Positions 23,641-31,895 of a stretch of DNA of 64,000 nucleotides are shown here, in pieces; the stretch's first letter is position 1, and each line of letters starts with the position of its first letter. This DNA comes from Curtobacterium salicis. Lineage in GTDB: Bacteria; Actinomycetota; Actinomycetes; Actinomycetales; Microbacteriaceae. The notes below the pieces were generated by a model. That model was not told where the DNA came from, did not search any database, and was given only the letters and a program-made list of their open reading frames with translations. The position numbers were made by a program, and so were the translations under genes. The stretch covers positions 124,001-188,000 of the forward strand of contig NZ_JAAOYO010000001.1 of NCBI RefSeq assembly GCF_011759505.1, given 5' to 3'.

Positions 23641-24696
23641 CTACGCCGTACCCGGGTCCTCGGCGCCCATGCCGGTGAGCAGTGCGCGGAACGAGTCCAG
23701 CCGCTCCACGCCGGTCGCCCCGAGCTCGCCGTTCTGCACCCGGTCGACGATCTCCCAGTCGTGCGCCTGGTCGAGCGGGATGCCGTCGGGGGAGTCCTGC
23801 ACGGTGACCGCGTGCGAGGCGAACGCCCGGAACACGTTCTCCGGCTGCACGTGCCCCAGGCCGAACGACCGCACACCCGGGGTGTCGATGATCCAGCCGC
23901 CGTCCCGCACCCGCAGCGCGATCGAGGACGACGAGGTGTGCCGCCCGCGACCCGTCACCGAGTTCACGACGCCGATCGCCCGCGTCGATCCGGTCAGGGC
24001 GTTCACGAGCGTCGACTTGCCGACACCCGAGTGCCCGACGGTGACCGTGACCTTGTCGTCCAGCAGCTCGTGCAGCGCCGCGAACGGCACGTCGTCCGCC
24101 CGGCTCGTCACGATGCGCAGGTCCAGACAGGCGAAGTGCGCCAGGAACGCGGCCGGGTCGGCCAGGTCCGTCTTCGTGATGCAGAGGATCGGGTCGAGCC
24201 CCGCGTCGAACGCCGCCACCAGGTAGCGGTCGATGAGGCGCGTGCGCGGCTCCGGGTCGGCCGCGGCGACGACGATCAGCATCTGGTCGGCGTTCGCGAC
24301 GATGACGCGCTCGACCTCGTCCGAGTCGTCGGCGCTTCGGCGGAGCAGCGAGGTACGCTCGGCGACCCGGACGATGCGGGCCAGGGAGCCCTCGTCACCG
24401 GAGACGTCGCCTGCGAGCGACACGTGGTCCCCGGTCACGACGGACTTCCGGCCCAGCTCACGGGCCTTCGTGGCGGTGACGACGTGCTCACCGTCCTCGT
24501 CGGTCACCAGGACGCCGAAGCGACCGCGGTCGACGTTCGTCACCCAGCCGGTCGGGGCGTCGTCGTACGACGGACGGGTCTTGGTGCGCGGCCGGTTGCC
24601 CTTCGGGTTCGGGCGGACGCGGACGCTGGACTCGTCGTACTGGCCGTACGGCTCGTCCTCGTCGGCCCCGCCGTCGGTGTCGTCCCACCAGCTCAT
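23641..24696 (-). CDS. rsgA: Ribosome small-subunit GTPase RsgA
   Basis: Circularly permuted GTPase that assists late 30S maturation, 351 aa. An N-terminal OB-like domain is followed by GTPase motifs in permuted order: TKTD (G4) near residue 174, GHSGVGKST (G1) near 220, and DTPG (G3) near 272. The C-terminal subdomain lacks the Cys-x-His-x-Cys zinc ligands of the E. coli type; the equivalent stretch reads FASHAVTVQDSPDG and has no cysteine. The start codon overlaps the aroA stop (ATGA). Confidence 0.93.
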   Translation of the reverse strand: MSWWDDTDGGADEDEPYGQYDESSVRVRPNPKGNRPRTKTRPSYDDAPTGWVTNVDRGRFGVLVTDEDGEHVVTATKARELGRKSVVTGDHVSLAGDVSGDEGSLARIVRVAERTSLLRRSADDSDEVERVIVANADQMLIVVAAADPEPRTRLIDRYLVAAFDAGLDPILCITKTDLADPAAFLAHFACLDLRIVTSRADDVPFAALHELLDDKVTVTVGHSGVGKSTLVNALTGSTRAIGVVNSVTGRGRHTSSSSIALRVRDGGWIIDTPGVRSFGLGHVQPENVFRAFASHAVTVQDSPDGIPLDQAHDWEIVDRVQNGELGATGVERLDSFRALLTGMGAEDPGTA

Positions 24697-26102
24697 GCCG
24701 GGTCCCCCTCGGTCGTCACGGCGTCGGTGCTCTCCGCACGGGCCGCCGTGCCGGTCGCCCCGTCCGTGCTGGTCGCCAGCAGGTCGGCCCACAGTTCCGG
24801 GAACTGCGGCAACGTCTTCGCGGTCGAACCGATGTCGTCGACCTCGACGCCTGCCGTCACCAGGCCGATGACGGCTCCGGCGGTGGCCATCCGGTGGTCC
24901 TCGTACGCGGCCCATCCGCCGCCGTGCAGCCGCGCCGGCTCGATCCGCAGCCCCTCGGCTCGTTCGGTCACCGCGCCTCCGAGACCGGTGACGTCCGCCG
25001 CCAGCGCCGCCAGCCGGTCCGTCTCGTGGCCCCGCAGGTGGCCGATGCCGGACACCTCGCTCGGACCGTCCGCCAGGGCTGCGAGCGCGACGAGCGCCGG
25101 GGCGAGTTCGCCGCCGCGCGTCAGGTCCAGGTCCACCCCCGGGACGGAGGCCCCACCCCGGATCCCGACGCCGCCGTCGAACACCAGGTCGTCACCGTCC
25201 CGCGTCACGGTCGCGCCCCACAGCGGCAGGAGCGTCTCGAGGTCGGCGCCCACCTGTGTCGTCTCGGTCGGCCAGGTCCGGATCCGCACCGTGCCCCCGG
25301 CGACGAGGGCGGCGACCGCGAAGGGTGCCGCGTTCGACAGGTCCGGCTCGATCGTGACGTCGCGCCCGCCGATCGGCCCGGGGTGCACGACCCACTCGCC
25401 GACCGACAGCTCGTCGACCTGCACGCCGCGGGCGCGGAGGACCTCGACCGTCATCGCGATGTGCGGCAGGCTCGGCAGACGCTCGCCGGTGTGTCGGAGG
25501 TGCAGCCCCTCGGTGAACCGCGGCGCGGAGAGCAGCAGGCCGGAGACGAACTGGGACGATGCCGACGCGTCGATGTCCAGCGTGCCGCCGCGGACCGAGC
25601 CCGTGCCGACGAAGCGGAAGGGCATCGCGCCGCCGCCGTCGTCGGTGACCTGCACGCCCAGGTCGACGAGCGCCTGCACGATCGCGGCCATCGGGCGCTT
25701 CCGGGCGTACGGGTCGCCGTCGATGGTGACCGGCCCCTCGGCCAGTGCGGCGAGCGGGGGCAGGAAGCGCATCACGGTGCCGGCGAGACCGCAGTCGACC
25801 CGGACGTCGCCGTGCATCGGCCCGGGCGTGACGCGGAGGTCCGGACCGTACGGGTTCCCGGGGGCACCGGCGGCCGGCTCGACCTCGTCGATCCCGACCC
25901 CGAGCTGCCGGAGCGCCGTCGTCATCAGCGCCGAGTCGCGCGAGTGCAGCGGCAGGTGGATCGTCGACGGGCCGTCGGCCAGGGCAGCGAGCACGAGCTC
26001 CCGGTTCGTCAGCGACTTCGAGCCCGGCAGGGCGACGTCGCCGTGCAGCGGGCCGCGCGCGACCGGAGCGGTCCAGGGGTGGGAATGCGTCGTGGCTGCC
26101 AT
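24693..26102 (-). CDS. aroA: 3-phosphoshikimate 1-carboxyvinyltransferase (EPSP synthase)
   Basis: Sixth step of the shikimate pathway, 469 aa. PEP/shikimate-3-phosphate binding motifs [13 protein letters not shown] (about 25-37) and [12 protein letters not shown] are present. The position of Pro101 in the E. coli enzyme is Phe here, as in other actinobacterial EPSPS such as mycobacterial ones. A -10 box TAGTGT (26117-26112) lies 9 nt before the ATG. Downstream rsgA overlaps by 4 nt. The divergent neighbour is sigR, and a sigR promoter is embedded in its first 22 bases of coding sequence. Confidence 0.95.
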
Positions 26103-26107
26103 CGGTT
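26081..26107 (+). promoter_or_regulatory. SigR-type (ECF) promoter, sigRp2
   Basis: GGGAAT (26081-26086), exactly 18 nt, then GTT (26105-26107). This matches the known SigR/SigH consensus (GGAAT-N18/19-GTT). It lies in the 5' end of aroA on the opposite strand. Transcription would begin near 26113 and include a GGGAGGAG ribosome binding site and GTG at 26141, in frame with sigR. Confidence 0.75.
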
Positions 26108-26111
26108 CACC

Positions 26112-26117
26112 ACACTA
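26112..26117 (-). promoter_or_regulatory. -10 box of aroA
   Basis: TAGTGT on the minus strand, 9 nt before the aroA ATG. It overlaps the expected start point of the opposing SigR-dependent promoter, so the two promoters probably interfere. Confidence 0.45.
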
Positions 26118-26240
26118 CTGAACCCATCGGGAGGAGCACGGTGATCGCACTCGCACCGTCACGAACGGCCGACACAGCGCTGCTGCCTCGGGCCGTCACC
26201 ACGCTCGTCGAGCCACAGAGCCCGGACACCACCGTCCGCC

Positions 26241-26246
26241 TAGACT
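26241..26246 (+). promoter_or_regulatory. Leaderless housekeeping promoter of sigR (p1)
   Basis: TAGACT ends 8 nt before the ATG at 26255, with no ribosome binding site between them. It would give a leaderless mRNA for the short sigma factor. Confidence 0.6.
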
Positions 26247-26254
26247 GGCGGGCG

Positions 26255-27055
26255 ATGACGACCGACGAACCGCAGCACGCACCGGACGACCTGGTCGACG
26301 AGACCGAGGCGCAGCTCGACGCCGTCGAGGACGAGGACCTCGCCGGACTCGACTCCGACGCAGAGCCCGAGCCCGTCGACGCGAAGACCGTGTCCGAACA
26401 CGAGCTGCGACGCCTGTTCGAGGACCAGGCGCTGCCGTTCATGGACCAGCTGTACGGCGCCGCCATGCGGATGACCCGGAACCCGGCCGACGCGTCCGAC
26501 CTGGTGCAGGAGACCTTCGTGAAGGCGTTCGCCGCCTTCCGACAGTTCCGGCAGGGCACGAACCTCAAGGCGTGGCTGTACCGGATCCTCACGAACACGT
26601 TCATCAACACGTACCGCAAGAACCAGCGGAACCCGTACCAGGGCACGATCGACGAGCTCGAGGACTGGCAGCTGGGCGGCGCGGAGAGCGTGACGCAGTC
26701 GATCTCGGCGCGATCCGCCGAGGCCGACGCCATCGACCACCTGCCGTCCTCCGCCGTGAAGGACGCGCTGCAGGCCATCCCGGAGGACTTCCGGATGGCC
26801 GTCTACTTCGCCGATGTCGAAGGGTTCTCCTACCAGGAGATCGCCGACATCATGAAGACCCCCGTGGGGACGGTCATGAGCCGCCTCCACCGTGGACGCC
26901 GGCTCCTCCGCGGACTGCTGGCTGACCACGCACGAGAGACCGGCGTCGTCCCGGACGCAGCGTCGACGGCGACGATGCGCGGACGAGGCCGAGGTGCAAG
27001 CACGCGGGCGGCCACGACGGCCGGCACCCGCACGACCCGGAAGGACGCACGATGA
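26255..27055 (+). CDS. sigR: ECF sigma factor, SigR/SigH type
   Basis: Redox-responsive sigma factor, 266 aa from the ATG at 26255. Region 2 ([18 protein letters not shown]) and region 4 ([31 protein letters not shown]) match the SigR/SigH group. The same frame stays open upstream to a GTG at 26141 with a strong GGGAGGAG site, giving a 304-aa long form with 38 extra residues. This copies the short and long SigR/SigR' arrangement known in Streptomyces. A 4-nt overlap (ATGA) couples it to the zinc anti-sigma gene. The Arg/Thr-rich tail after region 4 is lineage-specific. Confidence 0.93.
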
Positions 27056-27294
27056 GCGGGTGCGACTGCTCGAAGGCGAAGGCGGAACTCGAGGAGTTCC
27101 TCCACGACGAGCTGCGACACGAGGACGCCGCGGACATCCGCGAGCACATGGACGGCTGCGAGGACTGCCTCACCGAGCACCGTGTCGGCGTGGTGCTCAT
27201 GGAGACGGTCAAGCGCGCCTGCCGCGAGTCCGCGCCGGAGCAGCTCCGCGACGAGGTCCTCGCCCGACTCCGCGCGGTGCAGTCGACCCACTGA
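27052..27294 (+). CDS. rsrA: Zinc-binding anti-sigma factor, RsrA/RshA type
   Basis: 80-aa ZAS-family anti-sigma factor that holds SigR inactive under reducing conditions and releases it when its thiols oxidise. The H-x3-C-x2-C motif is HMDGCEDC (His32, Cys36, Cys39), with further cysteines at 4, 6 and 57. In RsrA one N-terminal Cys completes the zinc site and forms the trigger disulfide. Overlap with sigR by 4 nt gives coupled synthesis. A hairpin follows at 27330. Confidence 0.93.
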
Positions 27295-27837: not shown

Positions 27838-27903
27838 AAAACACCGGTGTTCGTCGGAAACACACACGCAGAGTGCGGTGTGACCGACGAACACCGGTGT
27901 TTT
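27838..27903. terminator. Bidirectional terminator between GNAT and kgd
   Basis: Perfect 20-bp arms (27838-27857 and 27884-27903) start with AAAA and end with TTTT, so RNA from either strand ends in a U-run. The 26-nt loop holds a smaller CACAC/GTGTG repeat. It lies between convergent genes, 4 nt from the kgd stop. Confidence 0.85.
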
Positions 27904-27907
27904 GCTG

Positions 27908-30900
27908 CTACCGCAACGCCCGGTCGATGACGTCGGCGGCCTCCTGCGCACTGCGCTTCGAGGAACCGGTCGCCGGTGCCGCACTCGCCGACCGTGACGA
28001 GACGGACAGCGGTCGACCGTCCAGGTGGGGCGAGAGGTTCATGCAGACGAACGGCCAGGCGCCCTGGTTCTCCGGTTCCTCCTGCGCGAAGACGACCTCG
28101 GCCTCCGGGTAGCTCGCCAGGACCTCGAGGATCCGGTCGAGCGGCAGCGGGGCGAGCTGCTCGAGCCGGACGAGGGCCACGTCGGAGATGCCGCGCTTGT
28201 CCGCCTCGGTCCGCAGGTCGTGGTGGATCTTGCCCGAGTGCAGCACGACCCGGCGCACCGACCCCTTGTCGACGCCCTGCGCGGCCAGACGGTCGTCGTC
28301 CAGGACCTCCTGGAAGGTGCCGGTCGTGAAGTCGTCGACCGCGCTCGTCGCCTGGCGCAGGCGGAGCATCGCCTTCGGCGAGAACACGATGAGCGGCTTC
28401 TGCGGCTTCGCCCACGCCTGACGGCGGAGCAGGTGGAAGTACGACGCGGGGGTCGACGGCCGGGCGACCACCATGTTGTCCTGCGCGCAGAGCTGCAGGT
28501 ACCGCTCGATGCGGCCCGAGGAGTGGTCCGGTCCCTGACCCTCGTAGCCGTGGGGGAGCAGGAGCACCAGGCCGGAGCGCTGGCCCCACTTCTGCTCGGC
28601 CGCCGAGATGAACTCGTCGATCACGGTCTGGGCACCGTTGGCGAAGTCGCCGAACTGCGCTTCCCAGAGCACGAGGGCTTCCGGACGCTCGACCGAGTAG
28701 CCGTACTCGAACGCCATCGCCGCGTACTCGCTGAGCAGCGAGTCGTAGATGAAGAAGCGTGCCTGGTCCTCGGTGAGGTTCGCGAGCGGCAGCCACTCCT
28801 GGCCGTTGGTCCGGTCGTGGAACACCGCCTGGCGCTGCACGAACGTCCCGCGACGGGCGTCCTGACCGGCGAGGCGGACGGGCTTGCCCTCGACCAGGAC
28901 CGAGCCGATCGCCATGAGTTCGGCCATCGCCCAGTCGACCCCACCGGCGCGGGTCATCTCGCGACGCTTGGTGAGGAGCTGCTGCAGCTTCGGGTGGATC
29001 GAGAAGCCCGACGGTGGGTTGCCGTGCGCGTCGCCGATGAGCTCGACGAGCTCCTGCGAGATCGCGGTGTCGTGCACCTCGATCTCGGAGTCGTCGCGCT
29101 GGGCGGTGGGACGCTCGAGGCCGTTCACGGCACCCGAGTCGTCCACCGGGACGGTCGGCATCGTGCCGGTCTGCGCCTCGTGCGTCTCGGCGAACGCGCG
29201 CTCCAGGCGGTCCTGGAAGTCGCGGTGCGCGTCGTCGTACTCCTGCTGGGTGATGTCGCCGCGGCCGACGAGGGCCTCGGTGTACAGGGTGCGGACGGAG
29301 CGCTTCGCCTCGATGAGGTTGTACATCAGCGGCTGCGTCATCGAGGGGTCGTCGCCCTCGTTGTGCCCACGTCGGCGGTAGCAGACGAGGTCGATGACGA
29401 CGTCGCGGTGGAACTCCTCGCGGTACGCGAACGCCAGGTCGGCCACGCGGGCCACGGCCTCCGGGTCGTCGCCGTTGACGTGGAAGACCGGCGCCTGGAT
29501 CGTCTTCGCGACGTCCGTGGAGTACACCGACGTCCGAGCGGACTCCGGCGGCGTGGTGAAGCCGACCTGGTTGTTGATGACCAGGTGCACGGTGCCACCG
29601 GTGCGGTAGCCGCGCAGCTGCGACATCTGCAGGGTCTCGACGACGACGCCCTGGCCCGCCATCGCGGCGTCGCCGTGCACGAGCACCGGCAGCGTGCCGA
29701 ACGTGCCGGCGGGCTTCCGGTCCTGCTTGGCGCGGACGATGCCCTCGAGCACGCCGTCGACGGCTTCGAGGTGCGACGGGTTCGCCGCGATCGTCACCGG
29801 GATGCGCGAACCGTCGGAGGCGCGGAACACGCCCTCGGTGCCCACGTGGTACTTGACGTCGCCGGAGCCCTGCCCGGACACGGTGCCGGGGAGCTGGGTG
29901 CCCTCGAACTCCCGGAAGATCTGGCCGTACGTCTTGCCGGCGATGTTCGTCAGGACGTTGAGACGACCGCGGTGGGCCATGCCGATCGCGACCTCGTCGA
30001 GTCCGGCGACCGAGGCGTGCTGGATGAGCGTGTCGAGGAACGCGATGGTCGACTCGCCGCCCTCGAGCGAGAAGCGCTTCTGCCCGACGTACTTGGTCTG
30101 CAGGAAGGTCTCGAACGCCTCGGCCTCGTTGAGCTTGCCGAGGACCCGCAGCTGCTCGTCCTTCGACGGCTTCGAGTAGGGGACCTCGATGTGCTCCTGC
30201 ACCCAGCGGCGCTGCTCCGGGTCCTGGATGTGCATGTACTCGATGCCGACGGTGCGGCAGTAGGCGTCACGGAGGATGCCGAGCACGTCACGGAGCGGCG
30301 CGGTCGTCGTCCCGGCGAGGCCGCCGGTCACGAACTCCCGGTCGAGGTCCCAGAACGTCAGCCCGTGGCGCTCGATCTCGAGGTCGGGGTGCGTGCGCTG
30401 CCGGTACTCGAGCGGGTCGATGTCGGCCATCAGGTGCCCGCGGACGCGGTAGCTGTTGATGAGCTCCTGCACGCGTGCGGTCTTGTTGACCCGGTGTGCC
30501 AGGTCGACGTTGATGTCGTTCGCCCACTGGATCGGCTTGTACGGGATCCGGAGCGCGGCGAAGATGTCGTCGTAGAAGCCGTGCTGGCCGATCAGCCGCT
30601 CGTGCACCTGCTTGAGGAACTCGCCCGACCCGGCGCCCTGGATGACCCGGTGGTCGTAGGTGCTCGTCAGCGTGATGGTCTTGCCGACGCCGAGCTCGAC
30701 GAGGGTCTTCGGCGCCGAGCCCTGGAACTGCGCCGGGTACTCGAGGGCACCCGCGCCGATGATGCAGCCCTGGCCCTTGGTGAGGCGCGGGACCGAGTGC
30801 ACGGTGCCGATGCCGCCCGGGTTCGTCAGGGAGATCGTCGTGCCCTGGAAGTCCGACGGGGTCAGCTTGCCGTCGCGGGCACGCTTGACGACGTCCTCGT

Positions 30901-31705
30901 AGACGGAGAGGAACTGCCCGAACGTCAGGGTCTCGGCGCGCTTGATGCTCGGGACGAGCAGGGAGCGCGTGCCGTCCTTCTTCGGGACGTCGATCGCGAT
31001 GCCGAGGTTGACGTGCGCCGGGGTGATGACGAAGGGCTTGCCGTCGCGCTCCTCGTAGGAGACGTTCTGGCTCGGGAAGTCCTTGAGCGTCTGGACCATG
31101 GCCCAGCCGATGAGGTGCGTGAAGGAGATCTTCCCGCCGCGGGCCCGGCGCAGGTGGTTGTTGATGACGATCCGGTTGTCGATCATCAGCTTCGCCGGGA
31201 TCGTCCGGACGCTCGTGGCGGTCGGGACGGTGAGCGAGGCGTCCATGTTCGACGCCAGGGTCTTCGCCATGCCCCGGAGCGGGGTGGCGACGTCCTCGTG
31301 GGTCTCTTCGTGCTCGTCGGCGGCGTCGTTGGCCTCGGCCGGGATCGGCTGCGGCGACGGCTGCCGGGAGGTGGTGCGGGCCTGGAGCGGCGCCTTCGTC
31401 TCTCCGGTGGCGGGCTGCTGCGTGGACGACGGGCCGGCGACGGCGGCGGGCTGCTCCGCGGGGGCGTCCTCGGCGGCGGCGGCCTGGGCGGGGGAGGGGG
31501 TCGTGGAGTCGGCGGGGGCATCCGTGCCGGCCGCGGCGTCCGTGCTGCTCGGCTGGGTCCGGTGGTAGCTCTCGAGGACCGGCCACCAGGACTCGTCGAC
31601 GCTGCTCTTGTCGGCGAGGTACTGCTCGTAGAGCTCGTCCACCAGCCACTCGTTCGCGCCGAATTCGCCCGCGGTCTCGTCAGTTCCGGTCAGATGGCTC
31701 GACAC
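27908..31705 (-). CDS. kgd: Multifunctional 2-oxoglutarate metabolism enzyme Kgd (E2o-E1o fusion)
   Basis: Actinobacterial fusion of the 2-oxoglutarate dehydrogenase succinyltransferase (E2o) core and E1o. It works with a separate E2p/E3 in the TCA cycle. The N-terminus has the family GANEWLVDELYEQY segment, then an Ala/Pro-rich linker. The acyltransferase domain follows (TYDHRVIQGAGSGEF) and then the thiamine-diphosphate E1 part with GMAHRGRLNVL, GDAAMAGQG and NNQVGFTT. The GTG at 31705 is chosen by family length (1265 aa). A GTG at 31771 lies 7 nt after TAGGGT and could be a leaderless start adding 22 residues. Confidence 0.93.
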   Translation of the reverse strand: MSSHLTGTDETAGEFGANEWLVDELYEQYLADKSSVDESWWPVLESYHRTQPSSTDAAAGTDAPADSTTPSPAQAAAAEDAPAEQPAAVAGPSSTQQPATGETKAPLQARTTSRQPSPQPIPAEANDAADEHEETHEDVATPLRGMAKTLASNMDASLTVPTATSVRTIPAKLMIDNRIVINNHLRRARGGKISFTHLIGWAMVQTLKDFPSQNVSYEERDGKPFVITPAHVNLGIAIDVPKKDGTRSLLVPSIKRAETLTFGQFLSVYEDVVKRARDGKLTPSDFQGTTISLTNPGGIGTVHSVPRLTKGQGCIIGAGALEYPAQFQGSAPKTLVELGVGKTITLTSTYDHRVIQGAGSGEFLKQVHERLIGQHGFYDDIFAALRIPYKPIQWANDINVDLAHRVNKTARVQELINSYRVRGHLMADIDPLEYRQRTHPDLEIERHGLTFWDLDREFVTGGLAGTTTAPLRDVLGILRDAYCRTVGIEYMHIQDPEQRRWVQEHIEVPYSKPSKDEQLRVLGKLNEAEAFETFLQTKYVGQKRFSLEGGESTIAFLDTLIQHASVAGLDEVAIGMAHRGRLNVLTNIAGKTYGQIFREFEGTQLPGTVSGQGSGDVKYHVGTEGVFRASDGSRIPVTIAANPSHLEAVDGVLEGIVRAKQDRKPAGTFGTLPVLVHGDAAMAGQGVVVETLQMSQLRGYRTGGTVHLVINNQVGFTTPPESARTSVYSTDVAKTIQAPVFHVNGDDPEAVARVADLAFAYREEFHRDVVIDLVCYRRRGHNEGDDPSMTQPLMYNLIEAKRSVRTLYTEALVGRGDITQQEYDDAHRDFQDRLERAFAETHEAQTGTMPTVPVDDSGAVNGLERPTAQRDDSEIEVHDTAISQELVELIGDAHGNPPSGFSIHPKLQQLLTKRREMTRAGGVDWAMAELMAIGSVLVEGKPVRLAGQDARRGTFVQRQAVFHDRTNGQEWLPLANLTEDQARFFIYDSLLSEYAAMAFEYGYSVERPEALVLWEAQFGDFANGAQTVIDEFISAAEQKWGQRSGLVLLLPHGYEGQGPDHSSGRIERYLQLCAQDNMVVARPSTPASYFHLLRRQAWAKPQKPLIVFSPKAMLRLRQATSAVDDFTTGTFQEVLDDDRLAAQGVDKGSVRRVVLHSGKIHHDLRTEADKRGISDVALVRLEQLAPLPLDRILEVLASYPEAEVVFAQEEPENQGAWPFVCMNLSPHLDGRPLSVSSRSASAAPATGSSKRSAQEAADVIDRALR

Positions 31706-31895
31706 AGCCGATCGCCCACTCTCCGTCGATTGATGCTCGTGTGTGTCGTGCAGGGCAACCCTGTCCCGCACGCCGTCAACCCTAGCCGCTCATCCGTGGC
31801 CGTGAGGTGGGAGACGGCGGGTGAGTCGAGCCTCCCGGCCGGGTCCGCGTGCCGCTCCCCGGCGGCCCTCCGCACGCCGCCGTACAGTGGCCGTC

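Follow-up and report, generated by a model that had tools for sequence, protein, structure and literature searches.

The locus considered here raises the question whether a single sigR gene gives rise to one sigma factor or to two, read from two promoters that are nested beside the start of the divergent gene aroA. For Streptomyces, the available text of previous papers already describes a longer form, SigR', with its p2 promoter, its extension and its short half-life (PMC5472188, PMC4921905, PMC6282962). An earlier note on this DNA had proposed a comparable pair of isoforms, and its claims were followed up in a stretch of 64,000 nucleotides of a Curtobacterium genome, referred to as the window, and in related genomes. 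The explanation that best accounts for the locus as a whole, and which we consider very probable, is that two nested sigR promoters yield two forms of SigR, together with exclusion between sigR p2 and aroA and a transient burst of SigR. The elements concerned, in window coordinates, are listed below.

24693..26102, minus strand: aroA (EPSP synthase), TIGR01356 336.5 bits; start codon at 26100-26102
26081..26107, plus strand: p2, predicted SigR-type autoregulatory promoter; GGGAAT, N18, GTT at 26105-26107
26112..26117, minus strand: putative aroA -10, TAGTGT, 9 nt before the aroA ATG
near 26113, plus strand: predicted p2 transcript start
26129..26136, plus strand: GGGAGGAG, putative ribosome-binding site of long SigR
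26141..26254, plus strand: 38-codon N-terminal extension of the long SigR isoform, starting at GTG 26141 in frame with ATG 26255
26241..26246, plus strand: p1, putative housekeeping -10, TAGACT, 8 nt before ATG 26255 and also translated (CTA GAC T)
26255..27055, plus strand: sigR, short isoform, ECF sigma factor starting at ATG 26255; TIGR02947 300.1 bits, cut-off 251.55
27052..27294, plus strand: rsrA, zinc anti-sigma factor of 80 aa, its start overlapping the sigR stop

The promoter that the earlier note had placed in the 5' end of aroA, on the opposite strand, was found as described, with GGGAAT at 26081-26086 and the core GGAAT-N18-GTT spanning 26082-26107 on a check of the window sequence. 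The ribosome site and the GTG that it had read as opening a 38-residue extension in frame with sigR are likewise present, and upstream of this GTG the extension frame has no stop until 25829. No obvious ribosome site precedes the ATG at 26255, and the AGGAGGTG-GTC start of Streptomyces is likewise missing there. Farther along the window, a 26-nt inverted repeat (27838-27903; arms 92% complementary, 14 nt apart and containing AACACCGGTGTT) separates two convergent genes and probably terminates transcription in both directions.

A SigR regulon is expected to hold thiol-repair genes, and the locus and its genome show the features of a SigR/RsrA system, namely a SigR/SigH-type ECF sigma factor, an adjacent RsrA-like gene and SigR-type promoters before thiol-repair genes. 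The RsrA-like product scores 61.7 bits against TIGR03988, slightly below the cut-off of 62.5 (E 5.4e-17), and carries the zinc-binding motif H-x3-C-x2-C as HMDGCEDC. Exact GGAAT-N18-GTT occurs at 23 sites in this genome and the reversed pattern, a weak control, at none. Scanning the open reading frames that follow 8 of these sites gave six that score above a curated cut-off (thioredoxin reductase, thioredoxin, MsrB, SufB, a TIGR03086 protein and IMP dehydrogenase); among the other 15 sites, some are not followed by any evident gene.

To follow the arrangement across relatives, 159 sigR loci of Microbacteriaceae were compared: 58 from Curtobacterium (60 genomes, minus G023, which is 73% complete and gave no orthologue-level match, and G025, with a broken match) and 101 from other genera, taken from 186 genomes with a match. 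A sample from outside the family comprised 79 loci from 41 families (L348 was left out as partial), and 80 loci of named genomes that overlap other sets are excluded from the counts. The p2 pattern was defined as GGAA[TC]-N16-19-GTT not more than 700 nt upstream of sigR, and where a family locus offered several matches the one with CAT near its end was preferred. The conservation of p2 across the family that the earlier note had looked for is evident, the pattern being present at 158 of the 159 loci (L140 is without it) vs one on the opposite strand, and the strict form GGAAT-N17/18-GTT at 157 vs none. Judged on sequence, the layout of p2 and of the p1 described below is beyond chance.

Does p2 lead into a longer protein? 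In Curtobacterium an in-frame start with a GGAGG-type site follows shortly after p2 in all 58 loci (GTG 27, TTG 27, ATG 4), with extensions of 25-50 codons. Stops in the upstream frame of close relatives had been named beforehand as the finding that would speak against a long form; none of the 58 loci has such a stop within the extension itself, up to the short ATG, and two have one farther upstream. The SD-to-ATG distances taken modulo three (43/14/1) are ambiguous because the site anchor shifts, and were replaced by a rule that takes the first SD-linked start codon after p2 with its frame left free, so as not to choose it beforehand; by chance one third would be in frame. Under this rule, 129 of the 158 family loci have an SD-linked start and 124 of these are in frame. 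All 58 Curtobacterium loci are in frame with the short ATG; of the 100 loci of other genera, 66 have the start in frame and 5 in another frame, and 29 lack such a start, which counts against the two-form explanation. With one locus per genus the figures are 41 in frame, 3 out of frame and 19 without. A stop between the p2 start and the ATG is found in 23 of the 100 loci of other genera, 18 of which restart with an SD-linked codon in frame after the stop and five of which do not.

These figures bear on the possibility that only short SigR is made, in which case p2 would merely provide a long 5' leader and the open frame upstream would be a by-product of high GC. Open frames are indeed common: among 64 genera the region is stop-free in 47 for frame 0, 17 for frame 1, 39 for frame 2 and 41-50 for the reverse frames, so that the absence of stops alone does not discriminate within Microbacteriaceae, and a p1 start is available at all 159 loci. 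A by-product would nevertheless leave the first SD-linked start in frame about one time in three, not in 58/58 and 66/71 cases. It would also not explain why a peptide motif, [VLIAT][LIV][ED][RAP][PTSEV] (typically ..VLERP), is concentrated in frame 0, where, taking a single locus from each genus, 31 of 64 genera have it; the two remaining forward frames give 1 and 0, no reverse frame gives more than 1, and codon shuffles give 2.1. Since the motif was picked after looking, it is the contrast between frames and not the motif itself that serves as evidence. We regard production of the short form alone as very improbable, and a chance open frame was rejected on the frame 0 concentration of the motif and the in-frame SD-linked starts.

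The extension had been described as simply different in sequence; it is unlike that of Streptomyces, but not merely different, as Microbacteriaceae share this peptide motif. The extension encoded in the window does not itself match ..VLERP and has a Curtobacterium variant instead, such as VATATLARERT. Outside the family there is no clear enrichment of the motif (7 vs 2 vs 1 of 50), nor of its parts, with L[ED]R at 7 vs 8 vs 5 and [ED]RP at 10 vs 3 vs 8.

A similar peptide is found at the N-terminus of Microbacteriaceae SufB, which reads MSDVLIDRPEL or near it and resembles the SigR extension motif (L163/L369, L370-L398). A SigR-type promoter lies not more than 200 nt upstream of sufB in 19 of 30 loci vs none on the opposite strand; two of the 30 (L372, L390) were misread, probably where a contig end cuts the flank. 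An N-terminal tag common to SigR and SufB within one regulon is possible and may be coincidence.

Turning to the short form, TANNNT stands exactly 8 nt before the in-frame ATG in 58/58 Curtobacterium and 101/101 other Microbacteriaceae loci; none of the 159 has it at another spacing between 3 and 13 nt. The position given previously for TAGACT holds; the claim of a strictly leaderless mRNA needs amending, as 8 nt from the -10 would probably give a leader of 0-2 nt. The TA of p1 falls in a CTA leucine codon in all 58 Curtobacterium loci. Among the leucine codons of the sigR core, aroA and the open reading frame 27908-31771, which we take to be kgd, CTA is used in 0 of 176, and the contrast therefore points to selection on a DNA signal inside coding sequence.

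It might be argued that SigR is made only in the long form, from GTG 26141, with TAGACT a chance or inactive sequence. In line with this, the frame runs unbroken into sigR and no ribosome site is recognisable before the internal ATG. Such a view is difficult to reconcile with the constancy of TANNNT-N8-ATG at all 159 loci, with the use of CTA at p1 and nowhere else in the genes compared, and with the recurrence of the same element in 22 of 41 other families. We find this alternative barely credible, and a coincidental -10 was rejected on the same three observations.

The constant spacing itself calls for explanation. Signals of the TANNNT type have been placed about 12 bp before leaderless starts in the portion of the published work available (PMC3160421). 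As a control, 464 kb of this genome, including the window of sigR, were searched, with 301 genes recognised by a rule on GC by codon position and not by annotation. Leaderless candidates with ATG have TANNNT at 6 nt (13), 7 nt (13), 8 nt (2) or 9 nt (5), and those with GTG at 6 nt (16), 7 nt (8), 8 nt (7) or 9 nt (1); pooled, 50 of 65 are at 6-7 nt, nine at 8 and six at 9, the nine at 8 nt being counted against the preferred explanation. Before the aroA ATG, TANNNT is found at 9 nt in 58/58 Curtobacterium loci and, in 92 other Microbacteriaceae loci, at 7 nt in 12, 8 nt in 36, 9 nt in 43 and 11 nt in one. Because the spacing varies both among leaderless candidates and at aroA of other genera, the invariant spacing at sigR does not look like plain promoter geometry, a comparison in which kinship among loci is ignored; such geometry was rejected as the cause on the 50 of 65 candidates at 6-7 nt. 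The invariance also speaks against a short form made alone. The 8 nt look locked by the extension frame instead, because a change of one base would shift that frame.

Outside Microbacteriaceae, p2 is found at 65 of the 79 loci and in 36 of 41 families, with one match on the opposite strand, and TANNNT-N8-ATG at 38 loci. Other ATG spacings from 4 to 12 nt gave three matches, and GTG gave nine at 5 nt (in most cases a GTG directly ahead of the ATG), four at 8 nt, and one each at 9 and 12 nt. At the 35 loci having both p2 and TANNNT-N8-ATG, the frame is open from p2 to the ATG in 33 and the other two frames in 10 and 22; the free-frame rule, applied to 35 loci outside the family, gave 12 in frame, 1 out of frame and 22 without an SD-linked start. 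One family of seven loci (f24) has p2 and TANNNT-N8-ATG in 0/7. We take it for Streptomyces-like from the published context of the GTC start, and the absence agrees with the ribosome-site/GTC start given in the available text for Streptomyces (PMC5472188). A family of eight loci (f9), probably mycobacterial, has TANNNT-N8-ATG in 0/8 and the p2 pattern in 3/8.

The earlier suggestion that the scheme is older and wider than the Streptomyces case gains support from this spread in sequence. The wider spread of the dual-isoform scheme is, however, only partly new: the title of Kim et al. 2009, on that scheme, reads 'in actinomycetes', so part of the distribution may be contained there.

In the available descriptions of S. 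coelicolor sigR-rsrA, a SigR-dependent upstream p2 gives the long form from an upstream start and the short form comes from p1, which lies downstream and does not depend on SigR; rsrA is adjacent. The present locus likewise combines a predicted SigR-type p2 leading into an in-frame extension with a separate p1 that appears SigR-independent. The extension is of 55 or 58 aa in the Streptomyces accounts and of 38 aa here, with a different family motif; the short form begins at GTC behind AGGAGGTG in Streptomyces, as the accessible passages have it (PMC5472188), and at a near-leaderless ATG here. Here, p1 is also embedded in the extension and p2 interlocked with aroA. M. tuberculosis sigH and sigE, as far as the text available goes, also have two promoters each, the upstream one recognisable by SigH (for sigE, by SigE or SigH), and sigEp1 is leaderless (PMC4921905); the eight probably mycobacterial loci differ from the present one as counted above. 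C. glutamicum sigH-rshA resembles our locus in having a SigR orthologue, an anti-sigma gene and several promoters, whereas in the accessible account its mapped sigH promoters fit SigA and a SigH-dependent promoter drives rshA (PMC3489674).

The overlap of p2 with the coding start of aroA, also noted before, is confirmed in that the aroA start codon sits within the p2 spacer. This ATG occupies a fixed place at 143 of 158 loci (126 at -8 and 17 at -7 from the GTT end). Codons 6-7 of aroA overlap the p2 -35 on the other strand; the corresponding AroA residues are HS here and YS in many other genera, and appear to be dictated by that -35. A ribosome site was recognised, by the rule used, in only one of 150 aroA leaders. 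With the aroA start codon enclosed in the p2 core, initiation at p2 and at aroA would be expected to exclude one another.

The overlap could instead be neutral packing with no regulatory consequence, which is otherwise compatible with two promoters and two SigR forms. Compact divergent promoters need not interfere, the two genes might fire at different times, and the fixed position of aroA is absent in 15 of 158 loci. Neutral packing sits less easily with the fixed position in all the others, with an expected aroA -10 that covers the expected p2 start, and with the situation outside Microbacteriaceae, where aroA, when found, is mostly hundreds of nt away. There, a divergent aroA was found at 17 of 79 loci, its GSKS motif being 665-888 nt from p2 in 12 and 119-142 nt in two, with no p2 match in three; it was not found at the other 62 within the 0.9-1.5 kb of flank covered. 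The interlock of p2 with aroA therefore looks specific to Microbacteriaceae. We consider neutral packing quite plausible, at a little under an even chance.

The DNA itself contains the two promoters, the two start codons and the open frame, along with the conserved extension peptide and the aroA interlock, and the dual-promoter, dual-start reading stands up to both kinds of test, conservation and frame. From this arrangement we infer the transcripts, the sigma factor used at each promoter and the exclusion of aroA as follows. In unstressed cells the housekeeping sigma factor would use p1, the mRNA would have next to no leader, and the short SigR made from it would be kept inactive by RsrA. Thiol stress would oxidise RsrA and free SigR, and p2 would fire; its mRNA, with the strong ribosome site and the GTG start, would give long SigR. 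As the internal ATG is without an obvious ribosome site, the p2 mRNA should yield mainly this form. The -10 of p1 would itself be translated within the extension, whose reading frame would fix the spacing to the ATG. By analogy with Streptomyces, the extension would make long SigR short-lived, presumably through Clp turnover, and the response a transient burst.

Instability is the step for which an alternative has to be weighed: both isoforms may be made, with the extension tuning RsrA binding, affinity for core RNA polymerase or promoter choice. In favour of such tuning, the degron in the extension is only putative, and two clpP genes (TIGR00493, below cut-off) have no SigR-type site in the 1.5 kb upstream; nor has a Clp_N protein (L315) over the same distance, so that the Clp part of the feedback loop known from Streptomyces does not show up here, a point against the preferred explanation. 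Against it stands SigR' of Streptomyces, which in the text available has a half-life of about 10 min and is made a Clp substrate by its extension (PMC4921905, PMC5472188). Tuning in place of instability strikes us as unlikely, and a short-lived long form remains the preferred reading. A ClpB/ClpC-like ATPase (L317, minus strand, read to the locus end only) has GGGAAT-N17-GTT 39 nt before its TTG start and an AGGAGG site just upstream, and may connect SigR with protein quality control.

The arrangement was not evident from the entries listed among open-access papers for SigR in Curtobacterium, sigR with aroA, leaderless sigma isoforms, Clavibacter start-site maps or leaderless spacing, subscription literature being mostly outside the scope of these searches. 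As far as they show, the near-leaderless, frame-locked short start, the Microbacteriaceae extension motif and the interlock with aroA are new. A more far-reaching, joint reading is tentative and clearly less probable than not: the frame-locked, near-leaderless plan would be widespread and perhaps ancestral in the class, with the ribosome-site/GTC start of Streptomyces derived from it; in Microbacteriaceae the placing of p2 over the aroA start codon would let its firing directly switch off aroA transcription; and ..VLERP would be an N-terminal degradation tag. If the two-form explanation holds, producing one sigma factor in both a short-lived and a lasting version would be a general actinobacterial strategy and not a peculiarity of Streptomyces, and the 159 family loci would offer natural variation from which a minimal destabilising tag might be read out. 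The explanation also predicts a direct link from thiol stress to the synthesis of aromatic amino acids.
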